This document shows, piece by piece, positions 3,761 to 27,801 of a stretch of DNA of 33,305 nucleotides. The notes beneath the pieces are model-generated. The model saw nothing but the letters and a program-made list of their open reading frames with translations, was not told the origin of the DNA and searched no databases. This stretch comes from a virus. Within the stretch, counting starts at the first letter, position 1. Every line of letters begins with the position of its first letter. The DNA is taken from positions 1 to 33,305 of the IMG/VR virus record IMGVR_UViG_3300045010_000538. One strand, given 5' to 3'. The translations under genes were made by a program, and so were the position numbers.

Positions 3761-4183
3761 TCAGGTCAGCCCGCGGAGACGAGACGACGTCTTCGCCTTC
3801 GTCGGCCACTTCGGGCGGGGCGACTTGAGTTCGAGGCCGAGTTGAGCGGCGACAACCTCCCCGTCTAGGTATTTGTCGCCGAGCTCGAGGAGGCCCAGTG
3901 CGCGGAGGAACTCTTCCTTCTGTGCGCGGGACTGAAACGTGATCGCGACCCAGTATTCCGAGTCGGTCGCGTCACGGAACCGCTGCTCTTCGTCCTTGGC
4001 GCGCTCCTGGAAGGCCGTCTGAACACGCTCGAGCGCCTGCTCGACGGCGACGGGGCCGGCATCTTCCTCGGGGGGCGCCTCGGGAGAGGCGTCCCGGAGC
4101 GGTGTCGGACCACGGAGGGCGACGGGGCCGCCTCGGAGCGACGCGGGGCCCCGGAGGGGAAGCGGGGAACGATTACGCGGCAT
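3761..4183 (-). CDS. 140-residue partner of the PP-loop protein, function unknown
   Basis: This minus-strand gene starts at an ATG at 4183 with GGAGGA just upstream and overlaps the end of the PP-loop gene by 11 bases, so the two are coupled. The first 35 residues are a low-complexity tract of repeated LRGP-like units (PLRGPAS, LRGGPVA, LRGPTP). The middle (about 48-75) is a charged helix, VEQALERVQTAFQERAKDEE. The C-terminal half has a compact motif, YWVAITFQSRAQKEEFLRAL, followed by GDKYLDGEVVAAQLG. This resembles uncharacterised phage proteins I have seen described but cannot name. The overlap suggests work with the PP-loop enzyme, perhaps as adaptor or targeting factor; that is inference. 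Confidence 0.7.
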   Translation of the reverse strand: MPRNRSPLPLRGPASLRGGPVALRGPTPLRDASPEAPPEEDAGPVAVEQALERVQTAFQERAKDEEQRFRDATDSEYWVAITFQSRAQKEEFLRALGLLELGDKYLDGEVVAAQLGLELKSPRPKWPTKAKTSSRLRGLT

Positions 4184-4928
4184 GGGTCCTCCGGGCGGCG
4201 TACTCGCGCCGCTGGATGTCGAGGTGGGCGAGCGGGAACCACTCGAGGATCTTCGCGTAGTCCCGCGGGAAGCGCTCCTTGATGGGCGCGAGGAAGCGGT
4301 AGTCGATCCCGTCGAAGCTCCGGCCGAAGAGCTCGTAGTCGACCGGCAGCTTGCAGCGTTCGGTGTGCAGACAGCACTCCACGTCGGCGATCTTCCAGTC
4401 GTAGACGGCGAAGAAGCTCCGCCGCGTGTGGTTCGCGGACCCGTACCGGCGCACGTTGGCGAGGCGGATGGGCGAGTCCGCGGTGCGGGTTCCGATCGCG
4501 ACGTACGCATCGGGCGCGCCGGCGACGCGGCGGACGTGGGCCTCGACCTGCTCGTAGCTGAGCCGGGGCATCGGCGTCGCCTGGAGCGCGCGGACCCGGT
4601 CCGGTGGCTGGTAGACGAAGTTCTCCAGCATCCGCGGAAGCGAGGGGTGCGGGAGGCGGAGGATCGGCGTCCCGAAGAAGTCCTCGTAGTAGCGCAGCCC
4701 CTGCTCGACGAACTCGAGCCCGGGCACGAGGTACAGGTAGAAGAGGACGAGCCGCGGGAACATCTCGCGCAGCCGGAGGGCGGCCACCACGCTGTCCTTG
4801 CCCGCGCTGAAGCTGACGATGCAGGTGTCGCCGGACATGGCGCGGACGAAGCGGCAGAGCTCCTCGGAGTTCGCAAAGTGTCGCGGAGACTCGGCGGCGG
4901 CGGGCTTATCGGGGACAGCGCGGGGCAC
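4173..4928 (-). CDS. PAPS-reductase / PP-loop adenine nucleotide alpha-hydrolase family protein
   Basis: This is a 251-residue protein. SFSAGKDS at residues 39-46 is the PP-loop (S-x-G-K-D-S) that binds the ATP/PAPS phosphate in PAPS reductases, DndC-like and related enzymes. The fold continues with helices and strands such as VVAALRLREMFPRLVLFYLY. A cysteine cluster (CCLHTERC) lies near residues 184-192 and might bind metal or take part in redox chemistry. It starts at GTG 4928 with AAAAGGAG 7 bases upstream, inside the end of the preceding gene. Phage relatives are common, but their substrate is usually unknown. Candidate roles include nucleotide or sulfur chemistry, for example DNA or tRNA thiolation; the sequence does not decide. 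Confidence 0.85.
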   Translation of the reverse strand: MPRAVPDKPAAAESPRHFANSEELCRFVRAMSGDTCIVSFSAGKDSVVAALRLREMFPRLVLFYLYLVPGLEFVEQGLRYYEDFFGTPILRLPHPSLPRMLENFVYQPPDRVRALQATPMPRLSYEQVEAHVRRVAGAPDAYVAIGTRTADSPIRLANVRRYGSANHTRRSFFAVYDWKIADVECCLHTERCKLPVDYELFGRSFDGIDYRFLAPIKERFPRDYAKILEWFPLAHLDIQRREYAARRTHAA

Positions 4929-5138: not shown

Positions 5139-5726
5139 ATGGCCGAGACGGATCGGCCCGAAACACTTCGGGAAAAGCCCCAGCAGCCCCGGCCCAAGAC
5201 GACGAAGGCGACGCCGAGGAAGCGCTCGGGCGGTCGCCAGGACCTCACGCTGACGCGCGCGCGTCACGAGGCGATCGTCGAGTCCGTAAGGTGCGGCAAC
5301 TACTACAAGACGTCGGCGAAGGCCGCCGGCGTTCCACTCTCGACCTTCTACGAGTGGATGCAGAAGGGCCGCGAGACGACCAGACAGCCCTTCCGGAAGT
5401 TCTACCTCGACGTCGCCTCCGCTCGTGAGGTCGCCGTCGATGAGCACGTGAAGTCCATCCACAACGCGGGCTTCACGCAGTGGCAGGCCCACGCGTGGCT
5501 CCTCGAGCGGACGGATCCGGGGCGGTTCGGTCGGAGGGACCCGGCCGTCGCCGAACTCGAACGAAAGGTCGCCGAGCTTGAAGGGCGCCTCGCTGCGGCA
5601 GCGGATTCAGGACGTCGAAGCGATCCTCAACGAGAGGGCTTCCAGGTCCTCGGCGCCGATGGAGTCGCGCTCGATCCGCCTGAACGGGCCACAGACGAAG
5701 GCCTACCGGAGCCTCCAACCGGGTAG
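5139..5726 (+). CDS. terS: Terminase small subunit
   Basis: This is a 195-residue protein directly before and overlapping the large terminase gene. After a basic, disordered N-terminus (residues 1-35), residues about 40-75 form a helix-turn-helix: ARHEAIVESVRCGNYYKTSAKAAGVPLSTFYEWMQKG is the classic order of phage small terminases, where Y-K-T-S-A-x-x-A-G-V and TFYEWM are the recognition elements. A central helical region and a coiled coil (ELERKVAELEGRLA, about 138-151) suit oligomer formation. It should recognise the packaging site and load the large subunit. The last 49 codons overlap the large subunit gene in another frame and have poor GC at third positions, suggesting that this tail is under weaker constraint. 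Confidence 0.88.
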   Translation: MAETDRPETLREKPQQPRPKTTKATPRKRSGGRQDLTLTRARHEAIVESVRCGNYYKTSAKAAGVPLSTFYEWMQKGRETTRQPFRKFYLDVASAREVAVDEHVKSIHNAGFTQWQAHAWLLERTDPGRFGRRDPAVAELERKVAELEGRLAAAADSGRRSDPQREGFQVLGADGVALDPPERATDEGLPEPPTG

Positions 5727-7065
5727 TTCGGTCTGCATGCCGTGGGGGCGTGGCGTCGGGAAGAGCCTTTTCGCGAGGTTCGAGTGGTACGACCACATCC
5801 GCCGCTGGGACGGGGTGCCGCGACAGCGAGCGCTCAAGCGCCTGCTCGGCGTGCGCATCGTGCTCCTCATGCCGACGTTCAAGGCGTGTAAGGACATCCA
5901 CGGCAGGCTGGTCGACGAGGAACTCGCGCCGCAAGGGCCGTGGGGATTTCTTGGGGCCCGGATCAACCACACCGAGTGGACGATCAGCTTCCCGGGCGGG
6001 AGCTGGATACAGTTCTTCGGCGCCAAGGAGGCGAACGCCTCTCGCGGCCTTCGCTGCGACATCGTGACGCCCGACGAGAGCGACGACATCGACCCTGGCG
6101 TCCTCGACGCCGTCGTGAAGCCGTGGTTCTCCGAGCCGTGGTCGCTCCGCAAGACGCTGCTCGGCGGGACGCCGCGGCGTGGCCGCTACGGCCTGCTCTA
6201 CCGCGAGCACAAGAAGGGGCTCGTTGGGGACGAGGCTCGAGCGCGCGACCTTGCGACGATCGAAGACGACGCCGAGCGCGTGAGCCTTCTCGGCCAGCGC
6301 AAGCGCTACAGTTTTCACGCCACCTACCGGGACGCTCCCGAGACAGTGGATCCAGCGTATGTCGCCGAGGTGCGCGCGGACATGTACGAACACGGGCAAG
6401 GCCAGGTGTTCGAGCGCGAATGGGAGTGCTCGTTCGAGTCGGGCGAAGGTCTCGTGTACCCGATGTTCGACGAGCGCTTCCACGTCCGCGAGGGTACAAC
6501 TGGGGCGTGGTCCGAGGTGCTCGTGGGTGGCGACCACGGCTGGGAGGACCCGGGAGTGCTGCTCGTGGTCGGCGTGCGCGGCAACGGCGCCGATGCGGAG
6601 TGCCACATCCTCGAAGAGGTCTACGCACAGCACCAGATCGAGGACTGGTGGGTAGAACGAGCTCGCGAGATCGTGAGGAAGTACCCGGGGGCACGCTGGT
6701 ATCCTGACCCGTCACGACCCGACCGGGTCGAGGCGTATCGGCGCAAGGCCGGCGCGCGCGTCCAGGAGGTCAACAACGCCATCGAGGATGGCGTCTCAGC
6801 GGTCGCGAACAAACTCGCTATTCGCAGGGCGGACAGCGGCGACTCGGAGGTGCGGTGGGCGCAGCTCTACGTCAGCCGAAAGTGCCCACGGACGATCGAA
6901 GAACTCAGCAAGTACAGGCGCAAGCGCGACCCGAGGAACGCCGACAAGTTCCTCGACGACGTCGAGGACAAGAACAACCACGCCATGGACGCGCTCCGCT
7001 ACGCCATCTTCTCCCGCTTCGGTGGCCCCTCGCGCACACGCACCGAGTTCGGTCCCGGCTACTAA
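5578..7065 (+). CDS. terL: Terminase large subunit (ATPase and nuclease)
   Basis: This 495-residue protein has a packaging-motor ATPase with Walker A GRGVGKS at residues 57-63, an IVTPDES Walker-B-like strand near 162-168 and a likely coupling motif in LLGGTP near 195-200. The nuclease domain begins GGDHGWEDPGVLLVV near 317 and ends with HAMDALRYAIF near 468-478, the usual closing acidic motif. It translocates phage DNA into the prohead through the portal and cuts it. The TTG at 5578 is preferred to the ATG at 5659 because codons between them are already strongly GC-ending in this frame, while the overlapping small-subunit frame is not. The TTG start remains a judgement. Confidence 0.93.
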   Translation: MKGASLRQRIQDVEAILNERASRSSAPMESRSIRLNGPQTKAYRSLQPGSSVCMPWGRGVGKSLFARFEWYDHIRRWDGVPRQRALKRLLGVRIVLLMPTFKACKDIHGRLVDEELAPQGPWGFLGARINHTEWTISFPGGSWIQFFGAKEANASRGLRCDIVTPDESDDIDPGVLDAVVKPWFSEPWSLRKTLLGGTPRRGRYGLLYREHKKGLVGDEARARDLATIEDDAERVSLLGQRKRYSFHATYRDAPETVDPAYVAEVRADMYEHGQGQVFEREWECSFESGEGLVYPMFDERFHVREGTTGAWSEVLVGGDHGWEDPGVLLVVGVRGNGADAECHILEEVYAQHQIEDWWVERAREIVRKYPGARWYPDPSRPDRVEAYRRKAGARVQEVNNAIEDGVSAVANKLAIRRADSGDSEVRWAQLYVSRKCPRTIEELSKYRRKRDPRNADKFLDDVEDKNNHAMDALRYAIFSRFGGPSRTRTEFGPGY

Positions 7066-7071
7066 GGCGTC

Positions 7072-8880
7072 ATGTTGTCGTCCCAGTATGCCGCGGAGCG
7101 TGACCTCGCCGAGAAAACGCTTCGTGCGAACGTTGCGGCGCGAGCCTCTCGCATGGACATGCTGGTCCGCTATGCCGAAGGGCGCCAGTACGAGGGCCGC
7201 CCGTCATTCTGGGACGGGTCGGTGCCGCTCTTCCGGAGGGCGCCATGCGTGGTCTACGCGGCGCCGGCCATGGCCGCGCACTCGTTCGTGGCACTGCTAC
7301 TCGGCGAGGAGCGGTTCTGCGGCCTGACCTCGCATCCTGGCGAGAACGATGCGGCGTTCGACGATGCCTTCGGTCTGGACGAGGCCGACTCGGCCACGCT
7401 GGACCGATTCACCGAGTCGATGCTCCGGCGCGGGCACGTGTTGCGCTCGCTTCGAGCGTTGCTCTACCGGTCGCTCGTGGCCGGCTGCGCGGTCGCAGTC
7501 GGCTCGATGCGACACGGCACACCCGCTCTGTCGACCCTCCCCGCGGAGTGGTGCACGGCGGAACGCGGGGCCGACGGCCAGGTAACCAAGCTCGAGGTCC
7601 TCTACCCGCAGATCGAGGACGAGACCGCGGCCGACGGGTCGAAGCATCCGGTGTGCATGTTGTACCGGCGAGTCATCGACGGCACGACCGACACGACCTA
7701 CCTCCCAACGCGAGCGCTCCTCGACGGCACGAAGCCGGAGGAGTGGCGCGTCGACAGGGAGCGCACGGTCGAGCACGGTTTCGGGTTCTGCCCGGTCGTG
7801 TGGTACGCCAACCGGCACGAGTCCAACGACCTCGTGGCGGTCGACTCAGGGCGTGCGATCCATGACCTCGTGCTGGACGAGCTCGACGGGTTGAACTTCG
7901 CGCTATCGGTGCGGCACCGCGCCGCGATGATGTTGGGCGACCCGATGATCGTCGAGATCGGCGTCGACAAGGACTACCAGCAGGCGCCACAGGGCGCGGT
8001 CTGGCGCAGCGCGCACATGGGTCAGGGCGACCACCCGGACAACTACAGGTGGGGCCGCTGGGAGCAAAGCGGCGCCATGGGGACGATGAAAGGCCCGGGG
8101 ACGACGTGGCGGTACGAATCGCCGCAGACGAAGGTCGACATCCTCACGCTGCCATCGGGCGCACTCGACCCGCTCGTCAAGAACGCTGACGATCTCCTCG
8201 CCACCGTGGCCGAGAGCACGGCCTGGGTCCCCACGGACGCGAAGCAGCTGAGCCTCGGCACGGCACCGAGTGGCAGGGCGTTCGAGTGGCTGCACAAGAA
8301 GCAGATCGACCGCTGTCTCGAGCTGCGAGAGGACTTCGGCGAGGGCTGCATTCTGGCGTGCGTGGGGGTGCTGCTTCGCATGGTCCTTGCGACCCCGGCG
8401 GCGCGGGTCCGACTCGGCGGCGTCCGTGAAACGCAGGCGATCCTGGGGCGCTTTCTCGTGGCCGTCGAGGGCGGGTTCGACTGGGTGCCGCCAGAGTTCA
8501 AGTGCAAGTGGGGGCCGTTCTTCCCGCCGACCGAGGCGGACATGAGGCTCGTGAGCGAGGCGGCGCGCGCCGACCTACTCGCGGGCATCATCACGAAGCG
8601 CACGGCCGTCGAACGGCTGGCGCCGTTCTACGCCATCAAGAACGTGGATCAGTACCTCGATGCGCTTGAGGGAGAGGAGGCCGAGCGCGACGGCGCGCTC
8701 GAGGGCGCTCTGCGGAACCTTCAGAAGGCGAGCGCGGTGGACGAGGACGAAGCGGGCGAAGCGGACGAAGGTGTTGCGGCGTCGGCCCCCACGCCCGCGG
8801 CGAAGCCTGTTCCGCCGCGCAGGACCACTGTGGAGGTGGGCGTCGTGCGAGGCCGTACGCGCGCCGCCGCAGGAGGATGA
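7072..8880 (+). CDS. Portal protein
   Basis: This 602-residue protein lies immediately after the large terminase, the normal portal position, with a matching size. It has a long helical N-terminus (RASRMDMLVRYAEGRQY), then a mixed core and a long C-terminal helical section where residues such as VPTDAKQLSLGTAPSGRAFEW resemble the loop before the portal stem and wing. The last 70 residues are an acidic then Pro/Arg-rich tail. It would form the dodecameric ring through which DNA enters and to which the neck attaches. No single diagnostic motif is visible, so the call rests on position, length and overall pattern. Confidence 0.85.
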   Translation: MLSSQYAAERDLAEKTLRANVAARASRMDMLVRYAEGRQYEGRPSFWDGSVPLFRRAPCVVYAAPAMAAHSFVALLLGEERFCGLTSHPGENDAAFDDAFGLDEADSATLDRFTESMLRRGHVLRSLRALLYRSLVAGCAVAVGSMRHGTPALSTLPAEWCTAERGADGQVTKLEVLYPQIEDETAADGSKHPVCMLYRRVIDGTTDTTYLPTRALLDGTKPEEWRVDRERTVEHGFGFCPVVWYANRHESNDLVAVDSGRAIHDLVLDELDGLNFALSVRHRAAMMLGDPMIVEIGVDKDYQQAPQGAVWRSAHMGQGDHPDNYRWGRWEQSGAMGTMKGPGTTWRYESPQTKVDILTLPSGALDPLVKNADDLLATVAESTAWVPTDAKQLSLGTAPSGRAFEWLHKKQIDRCLELREDFGEGCILACVGVLLRMVLATPAARVRLGGVRETQAILGRFLVAVEGGFDWVPPEFKCKWGPFFPPTEADMRLVSEAARADLLAGIITKRTAVERLAPFYAIKNVDQYLDALEGEEAERDGALEGALRNLQKASAVDEDEAGEADEGVAASAPTPAAKPVPPRRTTVEVGVVRGRTRAAAGG

Positions 8881-9362
8881 TGTTCGAGTCGACCTTGCCC
8901 AGGACCGACGAGGATCGGCAGCGGATCGCCGACGTGCTGAACTCCTGCGTCGCCTCGGGGATCGACCTCTATAACGGTGCGAAGTTCGCGCACTGGAACG
9001 TGCGAGGCCCCGCGTTCGGCCCGTTGCACGCGCTCTTCGGCGAGGTCGCCGGCGTCGTCGCCGACCAGGTCGACATCCTCGCCGAGCGCGTCTCGCAGGT
9101 CGGCGTACTCGCGCTGGGCACGACGCAGCAGGTCGCGGCCGAGTCCAGACTCGACGACATGCCGACGGACGAGACCGACGGCTACGCGCTCTGCCGGATC
9201 CTGTTCGACCGGGTGCGGCAGTGCGTCGCGCTGCTCTCGCAGGCTCGAAACGACAGCGACGAGCTGGGCGCGCTCGACACGTCGCAACTCTTGAGCGACG
9301 CCATCCTGGCGTTCGACAAGCTCGGCTGGAAGCTCGTGGCGCACGTCCCCCGCGGTGCCTGA
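8880..9362 (+). CDS. dps: Dps-family ferritin-like protein encoded in the head module
   Basis: This 160-residue protein matches Dps along its whole length. The ferroxidase signature is complete: AHWNVRG gives His38, PLHALF gives His50, and DILAER gives Asp65 and Glu69. The spacings of 12, 15 and 4 equal those of Listeria innocua Dps. Further hallmarks follow: LALGT, then MPTDETDG, and a C-terminal helix ending WKLVAHV. Dps forms 12-mers that oxidise and store iron and, in some species, bind DNA. AGGAGG lies three bases before this ATG, which overlaps the portal stop (TGATG); an ATG at 8877 is the alternative. A Dps between portal and MuF genes is unusual: it may be packaged, protect DNA from peroxide, or be a cargo or decoration protein. 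Confidence 0.9.
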   Translation: MFESTLPRTDEDRQRIADVLNSCVASGIDLYNGAKFAHWNVRGPAFGPLHALFGEVAGVVADQVDILAERVSQVGVLALGTTQQVAAESRLDDMPTDETDGYALCRILFDRVRQCVALLSQARNDSDELGALDTSQLLSDAILAFDKLGWKLVAHVPRGA

Positions 9363-10116
9363 CCTCGTCGTCCCCCGGGACGTGCGCCGCGTGCATCGCC
9401 AGGCTCAGGCCGCCATGCTGAGCGTGGAGGCCGCCTCAAGGCGCGCGATGGCGGCCACCGTGGCCGACGTCGCCAAACGGAACGCCGGCCGCGCCGGGGA
9501 CCTCCCAGGGGCCAGCGGCGCACTCCGAGCCCGGCTCGCGCCCATCCTGCTCGAGACGCGACGGGCGGCCCGTGTGGCCGCGTCGCGTGCGCTCGCGAAA
9601 GAACTCGCCGTGTCGGCCAAGGTGGCCGCGGACTACGGCGTCGCGCTTCCCGTGACGGCCGAGGTCGCGTCGTTCATCAAAGGCGACGACTCCGAACAGG
9701 CGACGAACCTCGCCGCGGACTACGCCGACGCCTTCATCGCGAAGGCGCACGAGGGGCGAGCCACGGGGGTCACCCTCTCCGACGTCGTCAGGGCGCTGAC
9801 GTACCGCGTCGACCGCCTCGCGGCGACCGAGACCTCGCAAGCGTTCAACGGCCAGCGAGCGACGGTGGAGCGCGCCTACCGAGACCGGTACGCGGGGACG
9901 CAGTGGTTCCCGGCCATGGTGAAGGTCTGGGATGCGACGCTCGACCGCCACGTGTGCCGAGTCTGCGCTGGCAAGGCCGGGCAGGTGCGGCCGTGGGGCT
10001 TCTCGTGGAATGGCCTCGAGCCAGGCCAACCACACGTCAACTGCCGATGCACGGGCATGATGCTCTTCGCCCCGATCTACATGGGGCGCGAGTTCACAGA
10101 GGACGAGGCGGCGTAG
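9355..10116 (+). CDS. MuF-like head morphogenesis protein
   Basis: This is a 253-residue protein from a GTG that overlaps the Dps gene by 8 bases. The C-terminal half carries the Mu gpF-like minor head signature: helical ALTYRVDRLAATETSQAFN, then KVWDATLDRHVCRVCAGKAGQV near residues 188-207 and PHVNCRC near 225-231. The paired cysteines and histidine are the conserved, possibly metal-binding core of this family. The N-terminal half is helical and Ala/Arg-rich. Such proteins usually sit next to the portal gene and are minor internal head components, sometimes ejected with DNA. Confidence 0.88.
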   Translation: MPDLVVPRDVRRVHRQAQAAMLSVEAASRRAMAATVADVAKRNAGRAGDLPGASGALRARLAPILLETRRAARVAASRALAKELAVSAKVAADYGVALPVTAEVASFIKGDDSEQATNLAADYADAFIAKAHEGRATGVTLSDVVRALTYRVDRLAATETSQAFNGQRATVERAYRDRYAGTQWFPAMVKVWDATLDRHVCRVCAGKAGQVRPWGFSWNGLEPGQPHVNCRCTGMMLFAPIYMGREFTEDEAA

Positions 10117-12255: not shown

Positions 12256-12984
12256 ATGAGTGATACCGCCACCGCGGCGCCTGCACAGGCGACCGCAACG
12301 CCGCCGCTCGCCGTCGAGACGCCCGCCGTGGGCACTTCGACCACGGCCGCTCTCTCCACGACGGATGACGTGCGCATGTCGAGTGCGGCCCTGAAGGCCA
12401 GACTCGAAGAAGAGCGGCAGAAGGGCGCACGGAAGGCCGAAGAGTCGATCGCCAAGACGCTCGGCGTCTCGGTCGACGAAGCCCGGGCCGCCGTCGAGAA
12501 GGCCCGCGCACTCGAGGCCGAGAAACTCTCGGAGCTCGAGAAGCGAGACCTCGCGATCAGGGACCTGGCGCCGAAGGCCCAGCGCGCCGCCGAGCTCGAG
12601 GCCGTCGTCCTGGCGCAATCCGCCGCAGCGATGGCTGCCTTGTCCGAGTCGCAACGCGCCGCGGTCCAGGCCATCGCGGGCGAAGACCCCGTGCGCGTAC
12701 TGAGCACGATCCAGGCGATGCGCCCCACGTGGGAGCGCGCGCCCGTCGTCGAGGCGCCGGCCTCGCAGACCACAATCCCAACCGTGCCGCCTACTCGGGT
12801 GCAGCCTCCGGCGCACACCGAAGTGTCGAGCGCGCAAGTTCCGCCGCGAGCCCCCATGGGTGTGGACCACCTCGCCGAGTACGAGCGATTGGCGGCCAAT
12901 CCGAATGGAGGCCGGTTCGCTGCCGCCGTGTACTACGCGGCCAACGCGGCGGCCATCGACATGCAACGCAAGCACCGGGCGTAA
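12256..12984 (+). CDS. Probable scaffolding protein
   Basis: This 242-residue protein lies immediately before the major capsid gene, the usual scaffold position, with TAGGAGA before its ATG. The N-terminus (1-45) is a disordered Ala/Thr/Pro tract. Residues about 46-140 are an almost continuous charged helix or coiled coil (LKARLEEERQKGARKAEES, then KARALEAEKLSELEKRDL). A Pro-rich linker follows (about 160-190). The last 45 residues form a compact helical end with basic residues (MQRKHRA), which in scaffolds commonly binds the coat protein. It would guide procapsid assembly and then leave or be cleaved. Confidence 0.78.
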   Translation: MSDTATAAPAQATATPPLAVETPAVGTSTTAALSTTDDVRMSSAALKARLEEERQKGARKAEESIAKTLGVSVDEARAAVEKARALEAEKLSELEKRDLAIRDLAPKAQRAAELEAVVLAQSAAAMAALSESQRAAVQAIAGEDPVRVLSTIQAMRPTWERAPVVEAPASQTTIPTVPPTRVQPPAHTEVSSAQVPPRAPMGVDHLAEYERLAANPNGGRFAAAVYYAANAAAIDMQRKHRA

Positions 12985-13028
12985 GGCCAGATCTGGACCT
13001 GCGACTCGGCTGAGGACACAAAACAGAC

Positions 13029-14150
13029 ATGGCAACCACGATCGACCGCAGTTCGCTGCCGCAGGAGTTCCAGGACCTCACCTCGGAGCGCATGCTCCGC
13101 GCGCCGGAGCCGCAGTACTTCCACGCGGCTCTTCTCAAGGGCGTCATCGCCGCGCAGGCGCTCTCGATGGCCAACGAGATCGGCCTGGCCCTCCCGGGCC
13201 GCGATCCGCTGGCCTCTGGCATCGATGCGCCCGCCAACGCCTTCGCTGGACTCGTGCTGAACGACCCGAGCGGCATCTTCGAGGCCGTCAGCTACTTCGA
13301 CGACTTCGACCGAGCGGGCGGCGCGATGAACCCGGGGCACTCGGTGCGCATCAACCGCCCCATCTTCACCGACTCGACCTACACGCTCACGAGCCGCACC
13401 ATCCCGGTCGGGTCGTCGATCGCGACGACGGGCCAGGCGGTGCAGATGGGCCAGGTCGATCTCGTCCTGCGCCGCATCGGCGGCCCCTACGCGAGTTCGG
13501 CGGTCACGCCCTACGTGCTCGAGCGCTTCGACATGATGCGCAGCATCCACGGCGCGGCGAACGTCGTCGGGCGCTTCCTCCAGCGCGACTGCGACAAGAC
13601 GCTCGACAAGATCGGGATCGACCTGTTCGACCAGGTCGACTCGACCAACGGCACGGTGCGGCCGGACGGCATGTCGACGGACGACAGCAGTGCGGCGGCG
13701 GGCACGTTCCCGCTCGACTACGCGACCATCGCGAAGCTGAAGACGCGCATGGTGACGCAGCACGTGATGCCGTTCCGCAACGGCCGCTTCGGGCTCGTCC
13801 TGCACCCGCGCCAGATCGAGCAACTCAAGAGCCAGGCCGACTTCCAGCGCCTCTCGCAGTTCCACCGGGACATCAACCCGCTGTTCATGGCGTCGTACCA
13901 GTTCACGATCGACGGCTTCGACGTCTACCAGTCGACCACGCTGACGACCGCCACGAACGCGAACTCGATCACGGTCTACCGTGGCCAGGCGTTCGGGCGC
14001 GATGTCGTCGGCATCGGCTGCCCCCGCAAGCCCGAGGTCGTGCAGCACTCGAGCGACAACTATGGCGAGAGCTACCCGCTCGTCTGGCTCGCCTACCTCG
14101 CCGTGACCACGCTCGACAGCCGTTACACGTACCGCGTGACCACGGACTGA
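13029..14150 (+). CDS. Major capsid protein
   Basis: This 373-residue protein is flanked by the scaffold upstream and neck/connector candidates downstream. Its composition and length fit a HK97-fold coat protein of the P22-like or similar branch. Features include a helical N-terminus (FHAALLKGVIAAQALS), a long spine-helix candidate (ERFDMMRSIHGAANVVGRFLQRD), beta segments of the P-domain type (FGLVLHPRQIEQL), and a strand-rich C-terminus (FTIDGFDVYQSTTL). It forms the icosahedral head shell. The call is by position and overall pattern; the coat lineage is not certain. Confidence 0.85.
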   Translation: MATTIDRSSLPQEFQDLTSERMLRAPEPQYFHAALLKGVIAAQALSMANEIGLALPGRDPLASGIDAPANAFAGLVLNDPSGIFEAVSYFDDFDRAGGAMNPGHSVRINRPIFTDSTYTLTSRTIPVGSSIATTGQAVQMGQVDLVLRRIGGPYASSAVTPYVLERFDMMRSIHGAANVVGRFLQRDCDKTLDKIGIDLFDQVDSTNGTVRPDGMSTDDSSAAAGTFPLDYATIAKLKTRMVTQHVMPFRNGRFGLVLHPRQIEQLKSQADFQRLSQFHRDINPLFMASYQFTIDGFDVYQSTTLTTATNANSITVYRGQAFGRDVVGIGCPRKPEVVQHSSDNYGESYPLVWLAYLAVTTLDSRYTYRVTTD

Positions 14151-14162
14151 AGGGGAACCAAC

Positions 14163-14573
14163 ATGATCAAAAGGTTCTGGAACAGCACGGGCGTCGCCAC
14201 CACGGGGTTCTCCGGCGCGGCCCCGCAGACCGTAGCGGGCGCGACCATTGCGGTGCGCGACAAGATCAACCTGAGCGCGCTCATCTACGCGAAGGCGACC
14301 GTCAACACGCTTACGCTGACCGCGAAGTGGCAGGTCTCGCTCGACGGGTCGACCTGGCGCGACGTCTACGGGCCGAACCGTGCGACGAACGTGGTCATCG
14401 TGACGGGCACCGGTTCGGCCGTCACCGACACGATCGTGGTGCAGGCGCCGGAGGCCGTGTACGGCTACCCGAGCGTGCGGTGCATCGTCGTGAGCGGCGT
14501 CGGCTCGGGCTCGGGTGCGGGCTCGGACGAGGCGTCGATCACCTACTACGCGAACATCGATCAGTCGCTCTGA
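14163..14573 (+). CDS. Head decoration or beta-sandwich structural protein candidate, 136 residues
   Basis: It follows the major capsid gene by 12 bases with GGGGA as ribosome binding site. The sequence alternates hydrophobic and polar residues throughout (LTLTAKWQVSLDGSTWRDVYG, TDTIVVQAPEAVYG), as expected for a beta sandwich, and ends with a Gly/Ser-rich loop. Genes directly after the coat gene often encode decoration proteins. It shares its general pattern with the protein at 11286-11723. No specific family is identified. Confidence 0.6.
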   Translation: MIKRFWNSTGVATTGFSGAAPQTVAGATIAVRDKINLSALIYAKATVNTLTLTAKWQVSLDGSTWRDVYGPNRATNVVIVTGTGSAVTDTIVVQAPEAVYGYPSVRCIVVSGVGSGSGAGSDEASITYYANIDQSL

Positions 14574-14594
14574 GCGGCCGGGGGCTGACTCGTC

Positions 14595-15197
14595 GTGGCG
14601 CTACTCGCAAGCGAGCTGGAACGCATCAAGGCAGAGCTGGGGTACAACGTGCTCACGATCGGCGCCTTGCCGTACGTCGGGCACTCCCAGCTCTTCGACA
14701 GCGTTGTCCAGCCGTACCTCTCTGCGGGGGCGTCCACGACGAGCAGTACCTCGGTCACGGCGGCGTCGAGTGCGACCCCGGTCGCACTCACCCTCGCGAG
14801 CGCCACGGGCTTCTCTGCGGGCGCGCGCGTGGTCGTGGACGTGGACGACCGGCAGGAGGTCGTCACCGCGCAGAGCCTCTCGGGGAGCACCTTGACGGTG
14901 CTGCTGACGCTCGCGCATTCGGGGACCTACCCGATCACGGTCGAGGGCGGCGAGACCATCGTCCGCGAGATCCTGAAGCGGCTGCGCCTCATCCACGCTG
15001 CGATCGACGACGCGTCGAGTACGGCTGGCATCAAGCAGGTGGACGAGATCCACTTCTTCGGCGATGCGCTGAGCAGCCAAACGGTGATCCTGGAAAAGCA
15101 ACTCGAGATGGCGCGTGACCGGCTCGCCGCGGCGCTCGGCGTCCCGAACCTCTGGCGTGTGCGGCAAGGCACGTCGCAGTCGATCGCGCTCTACTGA
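14595..15197 (+). CDS. Head-tail connector (neck) protein candidate, 200 residues
   Basis: The start is GTG at 14595. The protein has a helical N-terminus (LLASELERIKAELGYN), a central Ser/Thr/Val-rich beta region (about 45-125) and a helical C-terminal part (ETIVREILKRLRLIHAAIDD, then EKQLEMARDRLAAALG). Genes in this position, after the capsid and before the tail-completion proteins, normally encode adaptor or head-closure proteins bound to the portal. The C-terminal helices suit such a role. Its stop overlaps the next start (TGATG). Confidence 0.55.
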   Translation: MALLASELERIKAELGYNVLTIGALPYVGHSQLFDSVVQPYLSAGASTTSSTSVTAASSATPVALTLASATGFSAGARVVVDVDDRQEVVTAQSLSGSTLTVLLTLAHSGTYPITVEGGETIVREILKRLRLIHAAIDDASSTAGIKQVDEIHFFGDALSSQTVILEKQLEMARDRLAAALGVPNLWRVRQGTSQSIALY

Positions 15198-18494: not shown

Positions 18495-20057
18495 ATGGCT
18501 CTCACCGGGATCGACCCCGCGGCGCGTACCGCGGGCGACTATCGCGAGATCTTCTTCGCGCAGGGCCAGGCCGCCGGCTCGCAGACCGATCGGTCATACA
18601 TGATCATCGGCAACAGGACGTCGGCGGGCGACGCCACCGTCAACACGGTTTTCGGGCCCGTGGAGGACGACGACGCCGCGGTGCGCAAGGGCGGCCGGCG
18701 CTCCGAGTGGTATCAGATGTGGAAGAAGGTCCGGGCGGTCGATCCGACCGGCAAGGTCTACGGGATCTGCCCGACGGAGAGCGGCGGGACCGCGGCGTCG
18801 AAGACCATCACGTTCGCGGCCGGCGCCGCCACGGCAACCGTGACCGTGGACGTCGAGCTCATCGGTGAGTCCACGAGCTTCACGGCGCTCTCGGGCGACA
18901 CCGCGATCACGCAGGCCGCGGCGTGCGCCGCCGCGATCAACGCGGCGTCCAACTCGTCGTGGCCGGTGACCGCAGCCGTCGGCGCGAACCCGAACGAACA
19001 CATCGTGACGGTCACCGTGGCGAACAAGGGGCCGCGGTCCGACTACGTGCTCCAGGGGCTTCGCGTCACCTATCGGAAGAGCGCGACGACCACCGCAACG
19101 GTGTCCGCGGTCTCGAGCGGCACGACGGACGACGATCACACGACGGCATACGCCGCCATCGCGGCCGGGCGGTACTACTACATCATCAGCCCGAAGTACT
19201 CGACGAGTGCGCCGACCTCGACCGACGACGGCGTGGGCGAGGCGACGCTGATGGTGACCCAGCAAGCGCTCCCCGCGGCCGGCAAAGGTCAGCAGATCTT
19301 CTTCGGCTTCGTCGGCACGCAAGCGCAGGCGACGACCGTGGCGACGGACTCGGATGCGAACAACCCACGGCTGAAGATCTTTCACGCCGAGAACAATGAC
19401 TGGTATCCGGCGCTTCTCGCGGCCTACTGCGCGGCGGTCCAAGGGCTCGAGGAGCGGAAGCACCCGGGCGCGTCGCTCACGCTGTATCGTCAGAACGCGA
19501 CCATCAACCGGATCTTCAGCATCCCCGACCCGTACTCGAAGAGCGACCGGCCGACGGCGACGGAGATCGAGGCCGACCTGGCGAACGGCATCACGCCGAT
19601 CTGCTTCGACGAGAAGGGCAACGCGTACATGAACCGGTGCGTGACCTCGTACACCGAGGCCTCGGCGGGTGTGAAGGACTACCGTGCGAGCGAGGGGCAC
19701 ATCCCGAGCGTGATGGACTTCGTTTGGGATCTCATCTTCGCGCGGCACAACGTACTCCGTCTCGCCAACCCGTTCGTGGCAACCGATCCGGCGGCCGGGG
19801 AGAAGCCGAAGCCGCGCCACATGTACCCGAGCACGCTCAAGTCGATGGCGTTCAAGCTCATCGACGACCTCACGGCGGAGACCCCGCTCGGCCAGTACGA
19901 CGCGCCGATCCTGAACCCGAGTAAGAAGCAGGAGATGAAGGACTCGGTCGTCGTGACGTACCGCACGGGCGGCCTCGCGTTCTCGGCGAACTTCTTTGCC
20001 GTGGAGCACTATAACAAGGGCGAGTTCCGTCTGAACGAGACGAGCCCGAGCTACTGA
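18495..20057 (+). CDS. Contractile tail sheath protein
   Basis: This is a 520-residue protein of the Mu gpL-like sheath family. The N-terminal 90 residues, the central insertion (about 95-225, Thr/Ala-rich beta region, AVSSGTTDDDHTTAYAAIAA) and a conserved C-terminal core are in the usual order. The core has SLTLYRQNATINRIFSIPDP, EKGNAYMNRCVTSYTEAS and the helix VMDFVWDLIFARHNV, and ends GGLAFSANFFAVEHYNKGEF. The closing strands exchange between subunits in sheath proteins. It defines the phage as a myovirus and is followed directly by the tube gene. Confidence 0.9.
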   Translation: MALTGIDPAARTAGDYREIFFAQGQAAGSQTDRSYMIIGNRTSAGDATVNTVFGPVEDDDAAVRKGGRRSEWYQMWKKVRAVDPTGKVYGICPTESGGTAASKTITFAAGAATATVTVDVELIGESTSFTALSGDTAITQAAACAAAINAASNSSWPVTAAVGANPNEHIVTVTVANKGPRSDYVLQGLRVTYRKSATTTATVSAVSSGTTDDDHTTAYAAIAAGRYYYIISPKYSTSAPTSTDDGVGEATLMVTQQALPAAGKGQQIFFGFVGTQAQATTVATDSDANNPRLKIFHAENNDWYPALLAAYCAAVQGLEERKHPGASLTLYRQNATINRIFSIPDPYSKSDRPTATEIEADLANGITPICFDEKGNAYMNRCVTSYTEASAGVKDYRASEGHIPSVMDFVWDLIFARHNVLRLANPFVATDPAAGEKPKPRHMYPSTLKSMAFKLIDDLTAETPLGQYDAPILNPSKKQEMKDSVVVTYRTGGLAFSANFFAVEHYNKGEFRLNETSPSY

Positions 20058-27480: not shown

Positions 27481-27801
27481 GTGGCCTCTGCCTGCAAGAT
27501 CCCGAGCTTCTCGTTCTCGCTACCGATCCCCGGCTTCTCGCTGCCGAGCTTCACGCTCCCGAGCCTACCGGGCCTACCCGACATCGGCTTCTCACTGAAG
27601 CTGCCGACGTTCTCGTTCGCACTGCCCATCCCTGGCTTCAGTCTCCCGAGCCTCACGCTTCCGAGTCTGCCGGGCCTACCCGACATCGGCTTCCCGCTGA
27701 AGCTGCCGACGTTCTCGTTCGCGCTCCCGATCCCAGGCTTCTCGCTCCCGTCGATCAAGTTCCCGCCGCCGCTGCCAACCCTCTACTGCCCGCTGGACTG
27801 A
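27481..27801 (+). CDS. Proline-rich 34-residue repeat protein, possible spike tip
   Basis: This 106-residue product of a GTG start is built almost only of Pro, Leu, Phe, Ser, Ile, Gly and Thr. Two full 34-residue units and a partial third make up the core: FSFSLPIPGFSLPS, then LPSLPGLPDIGF, then LKLPT. Near each end lies one Cys (ACKIPS, LYCPLD). It contains no charged segment apart from a few Asp and Lys. It sits between spike and fibre genes. It may be a tip, a cap or a spike-associated shaft; there is no recognised family, so the role is inferred from location. Confidence 0.6.
   Translation: MASACKIPSFSFSLPIPGFSLPSFTLPSLPGLPDIGFSLKLPTFSFALPIPGFSLPSLTLPSLPGLPDIGFPLKLPTFSFALPIPGFSLPSIKFPPPLPTLYCPLD
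27508..27753 (+). repeat. Tandem 102-base coding repeat (two full, one partial copy)
   Basis: Units start at 27508, 27610 and 27712, exactly 102 bases (34 codons) apart. Copies one and two differ at 3 of 34 residues but at about 8 further synonymous codons, including TCG to AGT for one serine. The repeated protein sequence is therefore kept by selection rather than being a fresh duplication. Confidence 0.9.

Follow-up and report, generated by a model that had tools for sequence, protein, structure and literature searches.

The window analysed here is a 33,305-base viral contig from IMG/VR. It belongs to a contractile-tailed phage: terminase, tail sheath, tape measure and baseplate genes were recognised in profile scans, and the tail sheath match (phrog_165) indicates a myovirus. 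Among the head genes, a gene for a Dps-type mini-ferritin lies between those for the portal protein and a MuF-like minor head protein. The locus is made up of the following features.

5139..5726, plus strand: terminase small subunit (phrog_4102, 4.1e-21)
5578..7065, plus strand: terminase large subunit (TerL), start uncertain (phrog_2, 8.5e-32)
7072..8880, plus strand: portal protein gene, 602 aa (phrog_104, 0.0016, a weak match; 49% identical to the portal of contig L005, which has the same order; tblastn 5e-7)
8871..8876, plus strand: AGGAGG, a Shine-Dalgarno-like sequence at the end of the portal gene, also present in contig L002
8880..9362, plus strand: Dps-type mini-ferritin, 160 aa, ending in TGA, with an alternative in-frame ATG at 8877 (PF00210, phrog_3636, PDB, structure model)
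9355..10116, plus strand: MuF-like minor head protein gene, 253 aa (phrog_3517, 2.0e-6; phrog_595, 2.9e-6; PF04233, 0.0062, under its cut-off)
13029..14150, plus strand: probable major capsid protein, 373 aa (98% and 61% identical in L004 and L005, respectively; phrog_267 at 0.012 only; model pLDDT 30)
18495..20057, plus strand: tail sheath (phrog_165, 3.8e-34)

The weak portal call is strengthened by the TerL-portal-MuF order, by the 49%-identical relative and by distant portal proteins of Komagataeibacter phages, which match the window portal at 5e-7 in tblastn. Further downstream, an ORF at 12860-15118 was rejected as a shadow ORF together with other wrong frames at 10.5-15.1 kb, the likely capsid gene being 13029-14150; part of the null profile results for this stretch concern the shadow frames. 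TerL is only 52% identical to its counterpart in the sister contig, as against 84-94% for portal, Dps and MuF, so the terminase region probably carries a recombination joint. Two further genes were noted in passing. An ORF on the minus strand (4173-4928, GC3 0.95), in a phage whose other genes lie mostly on the plus strand, carries an SFSAGKDS motif that presumably resembles those of PAPS reductase and ATP-pyrophosphatase enzymes, and a short Pro/Phe/Leu-rich repeat protein (IPGFSLPS...) is encoded at 27481-27801, directly 5′ of a tail-fibre-like gene.

An earlier note on this DNA, made from the letters alone, had read 8880-9362 as a Dps ferritin inside the head genes, and Pfam, PHROG, PDB and fold all agree with this reading. 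The product matched the Pfam family Ferritin (PF00210) at 3.7e-10, with 40.3 bits against a curated cut-off of 24.5, and phrog_3636 at 7.5e-18. Fifty PDB sequences matched at E ≤ 0.001, the best being 3ge4 (8e-21); the best solved relatives are the Dps proteins of Brucella (3ge4) and Agrobacterium (1o9r), with 32-35% identity. An AlphaFold monomer model built from 18 aligned sequences reached a mean pLDDT of 93.7 and was found by Foldseek to match 3ge4 and 1o9r with TM scores of 0.90-0.91. The model has a four-helix fold with a short BC helix (helices at residues 10-40, 46-73, 82-88, 101-128 and 132-153). The product is thus a Dps beyond reasonable doubt. A GC3 of 0.93 and a dN/dS of 0.122 against the 94%-identical relative mark a real gene under selection. 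This selection is purifying, much as on the portal gene (0.141 in the same comparison, with 0.287 for MuF); dN/dS values against L005 and L009 were near saturation and were set aside.

To describe the iron site, we aligned 93 Dps sequences, consisting of 8 head-linked, 75 other viral and 10 cellular rows. The codons in question are, with positions of E. coli Dps obtained by alignment to 3ge4 and 1o9r:

8991..8993, plus strand: His38, at the position of His51 (H in 93/93 rows, a column partly selected because rows had to contain His-Trp)
9027..9029, plus strand: His50, at the position of His63 (H in 93/93 rows)
9039..9041, plus strand: Gly54, in the place of Asp67 (G in 53/83 viral and 0/10 cellular rows, as a trend)
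9072..9074, plus strand: Asp65, at the position of Asp78 (D in 93/93 rows)
9084..9086, plus strand: Glu69, at the position of Glu82 (E in 93/93 rows)

His38, His50, Asp65 and Glu69 align without gaps with the ferroxidase residues of known Dps proteins, positions that we take to form the inter-subunit ferroxidase site. The intact site described in the earlier note therefore holds for these four residues, which are present as claimed, but the site is not fully canonical, since Gly54 replaces Asp67. We take Asp67 of E. coli Dps to be the fifth canonical ligand, one that is not universal and so not defining; the ten cellular rows have 5 D, 3 E, 1 M and 1 Q in its place. Glycine is found there in 6/8 head-linked, 47/75 other viral and 0/10 cellular rows, an excess that is a trend and not a rate because of near-copies among the viral rows. 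With glycine at the place of a canonical ligand, ferroxidase activity may be altered or lost.

The window Dps is an acidic protein with a pI of 4.64. Its N-terminus, MFESTLPRTDEDRQR, has no lysine within the first 15 residues, and the Lys-rich N-terminal tail of the DNA-compacting Dps of the E. coli type is absent. In addition, the PDB title of 1o9r, one of the best fold matches, speaks of DNA protection 'without binding'. An acidic protein that lacks the Lys-rich tail is unlikely to compact DNA, and the suggestion of DNA compaction in the earlier note was dropped.

The gene is linked to both of its neighbours. The portal stop codon (8878-8880) shares one nucleotide with the Dps ATG at 8880, and the Dps stop overlaps the MuF gene, which starts with GTG at 9355, by 8 nt. 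The linkage to both genes stated earlier is thus seen at both joints; however, stoichiometry is not set by an overlap of start and stop codons. When related contigs were surveyed for the portal-Dps-MuF order, it was found to recur at 40% Dps identity with overlaps kept at both joints. A close relative (IMGVR 3300044953_000554; L002/L004) has the arrangement of the window, with 94% identity in Dps and 93% in the portal. In L005 (3300011116_001153) the same order is present with 40%, 49% and 39% identity for Dps, portal and MuF, respectively, and with overlaps of 1 base between portal and Dps and 4 bases between Dps and MuF. The MuF frame of this contig (L005:1266-2014) looks broken, as the match changes frame near 1.7 kb, which may be a sequencing error. 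In L009 (3300036859_000984), Dps (39%) is followed by two small ORFs and then MuF (32%), and no portal match was found in the 422 bases before Dps. One apparent Dps relative, L003, was rejected as a chance match to a portal C-terminus. The portal query gave two contigs, each with a Dps gene, and the MuF alignment gave six, two of them with Dps. No Dps was seen in the other four MuF contigs (L140-L143), one of which has just ~0.6 kb upstream of the MuF match; the function of Dps is therefore dispensable for related heads.

Dps genes were also found in head or packaging modules of other kinds. Such a placement was seen in nine of 50 Dps-bearing viral records (L002, L005, L009, L010, L025, L026, L080, L074 and L092), which is not a population estimate, since the 50 were picked from 100 processed loci, themselves mostly those that score best against the window Dps, and the sample is biased. 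Nine is also a lower bound: the other 41 records were searched for portals with three profiles and for a protease with one, and some neighbours were scanned. Eight of these 41 have a portal match at a linear distance of 12 to 263 kb from Dps, three of the matches being marginal. L010 carries a Mu-type portal gene, one small ORF (99 aa) whose end is overlapped by the Dps start, Dps, and then a maturation protease and a capsid gene. Dps lies directly 3′ of a divergent Mu-type portal in L025 (4-base overlap) and directly 3′ of a PHROG 776 portal in L080. In L026 it stands between an SPP1-type portal, after which there is a gap of 615 bases, and a scaffold gene. In L074 the order is TerL, Dps, a PHROG 12 portal and a protease/capsid gene, and in L092 Dps is found between TerS and TerL, overlapping TerS by 8 nt. 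Start/stop overlaps of 1-4 nt between Dps and an upstream portal gene occur at five loci (window, L002, L005, L025 and L080). These loci amount to five or six portal/terminase contexts, as the weak match of the window portal, PHROG 104, is the family that the L026 portal matches strongly.

Phylogenetic analysis indicated that these placements do not share one origin. In a tree of the 93 rows, the Dps proteins of the window, L002, L005, L009 and L010 formed one clade (98/92), though the portal type of L010 differs, and those of L025, L026 and L080 were placed outside it. A second tree of 49 rows was made after 44 rows had been dropped to thin near-copies and long branches, with some end branches still long; here the clade had a support of 94/88. 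L074 and L092 were classed as head-linked on the basis of their genes once the first tree was known. The ten head-linked rows of the second tree need six changes, of which well-supported branches force at least three. A single clade of all ten was rejected (AU test, p 5.7e-7), whereas joining L025 to the window clade was not rejected (p 0.083). Head-module placement of Dps arose more than once. Together with the gene order and the overlaps kept at 40% identity, this shows that the link to head genes noted earlier is not an accident of one genome.

As far as tested, phage Dps genes elsewhere lie mostly outside head modules. Matches in the phage collection comprised 18 records with the window Dps and 19 with the L026 Dps. 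Eight annotated phages with a Dps match were viewed (7-11, LAh_8, BUCT695, S-SRM01, Mildred21, LpeD, BS162P1 and PKM.Lu.22.1), and no head gene was annotated in the stretch viewed around Dps. In five of the eight, nucleotide or replication genes surround Dps. Of the other three, S-SRM01 carries a tail fibre gene at a distance of three genes after Dps, the neighbours in LpeD are accessory genes, and those in BS162P1 are all hypothetical. A scan of genome contigs gave three Dps loci, none of which had recognisable phage head genes when the ORF lists were inspected by eye. Two prolific Dps groups, the jumbo-phage type and the L012 type, whose neighbour is presumably a sugar-nucleotide dehydratase-like gene, are not head-linked as far as tested. 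On another phage contig, two convergent Dps-type genes were observed (L052:5653-6462 and 6508-6951), one of them fused to a PHROG 2859 domain. Since the phage Dps genes tested mostly lie outside head modules, the protein can be useful without that context as well.

What does a Dps do among head genes? The probable role of head-linked Dps is in a step connected with assembly or protection of the virus particle. The specific reading that we favour, and that we believe and doubt in about equal measure, is late control of iron and peroxide around the DNA at head assembly by a predicted ferroxidase cage. The product is a true Dps-type ferritin-like protein, for which family and fold make a 12-subunit cage probable. 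As its gene lies inside the portal-MuF cistron series, we infer that it is made late in infection. Its predicted ferroxidase centres would oxidise Fe(II) using H2O2 or O2, and Fe(III) would be stored inside the cage. Such an iron and peroxide sink could keep hydroxyl radicals off phage DNA as heads form and take up their DNA; being acidic and without a basic tail, the protein would probably protect DNA without binding it. A report on infection by phage YerA41 lists the host's own dps among the most strongly upregulated genes (PMC7354516), so that oxidative or iron stress does arise in infected cells. A purely intracellular job, however, would offer no obvious reason for repeated recruitment to head modules.

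This recruitment, to head and packaging modules alike, and the direct overlaps with portal genes also fit the strongest rival, that Dps is a virion component. In this case portal, MuF or scaffold would carry it along into the prohead, and it would stay in the capsid as an internal iron cage that protects the packaged DNA, or it would bring iron with the particle. We consider this possible, if tentatively so. In L010 the Dps gene is directly 5′ of the head-maturation protease gene. By Foldseek names and scores, three BFVD proteins named 'Prohead protease' have a Dps fold (A0A6J7WPK9, A0A6J7XDU5 and A0A6J7WIS1; 763, 333 and 432 aa) and are, by name, apparent Dps-protease fusions. Furthermore, an ORF of at least 541 aa in L099 (1-1626) has Dps at residues 44-186, followed by a ~355-aa C-terminal tail in which EEVE...xxE stretches recur. 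The prohead proteases of T4 and giant phages are described as cleaving after Glu (PMC5694885). A nearby ORF, L099 2613-3281, has similar KEEVEEFDEA stretches, and the two L099 proteins are possibly capsid-internal with protease sites. The L099 tail and the protease-named proteins hint at a virion role, but are suggestive only: the single L099 flanking gene scanned is a ribonucleotide reductase and not a head gene. Further points speak against a virion component. No targeting signal was recognised in the window Dps, and most phage Dps genes seen were not shown to lie in head modules. A Dps cage is ~9 nm wide, too wide for a tail tube, and could not be ejected intact. It is conceivable, though we find it somewhat doubtful, that Dps cages entered the prohead independently in several unrelated tailed phages, beside the portal or in fusion with the maturation protease, and guard packaged DNA there as internal traps for iron and peroxide.

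Alternatively, Dps might be a cargo gene ('moron') that has settled where the head operon tolerates insertions and that raises the oxidative tolerance of the host, its place being meaningless for its function. A study of gut phages lists DPS for 'Gratiaviridae' and for a further 36 genomes of gut phages, and interprets it as help for the host against oxidative stress; the same study has a HipA-like kinase gene lying between those for portal and capsid, so that the gap accepts unrelated, non-virion genes (PMC8008677). Related MuF loci without Dps exist as well. On the other hand, both overlapping junctions are kept at 40% identity and Dps was recruited repeatedly, which makes a mere cargo gene improbable. 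It is very unlikely that the Dps fold has been retained for a structural role, in a scaffold or at the portal vertex, with iron chemistry secondary or lost: the trend towards glycine in place of Asp67 in head-linked and other viral rows would fit, but glycine is also the commonest residue there in viral Dps outside the head-linked set, and the remaining four ligands do not vary, as they would be expected to do had metal binding been lost.

Should the site of action of head-linked Dps be on or in the particle, phages protect packaged DNA by ferritin chemistry. Iron could then pass from cell to cell in virions, a possibility that matters for the question of iron in phage particles. Should its action be confined to the cell, late expression of an antioxidant gene from the head operon has still been selected repeatedly. 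Head-linked Dps is in any case more general than one genome shows, and the list of loci in five or six portal/terminase contexts makes a particle role directly testable.

A literature search of open-licence papers, bioRxiv excluded, gave no description of a portal-adjacent or recurrent head-module Dps. Phage Dps has been described before as a host stress gene; within that search, the recurrent head-module placement is new. The Dps genes of gut phages (PMC8008677) and of Lactobacillus plantarum phages (PMC6669764) are likewise encoded by tailed phages; the passages on Dps in these papers describe no portal-Dps order, and the latter places the gene near DNA metabolism genes. For phage-encoded non-shell proteins carried in the head, the internal proteins IPI-III and Alt of T4 are a precedent; the T4 internal proteins have a capsid targeting sequence that is removed by the prohead protease (PMC9026906), the kind of signal not recognised in the window Dps. 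In the PDB alignment the window Dps has no N-terminal extension relative to cellular Dps, and profile scans of the window, some on shadow frames, recognised no prohead protease gene apart from a partial match of the MuF region to phrog_595, named head maturation protease. The cellular Dps proteins of Agrobacterium tumefaciens (1o9r, by its title protecting DNA without binding) and Brucella (3ge4) share fold, length and the four ferroxidase residues with the window Dps, whereas the latter has glycine as fifth ligand, is 32-35% identical to them and is encoded in a phage head operon. Finally, the 'Ferrojan Horse' hypothesis reportedly concerns iron in phage tails, as part of virions; there the iron is tail-bound, whereas the window has a gene for a ferritin-type cage in its head module.
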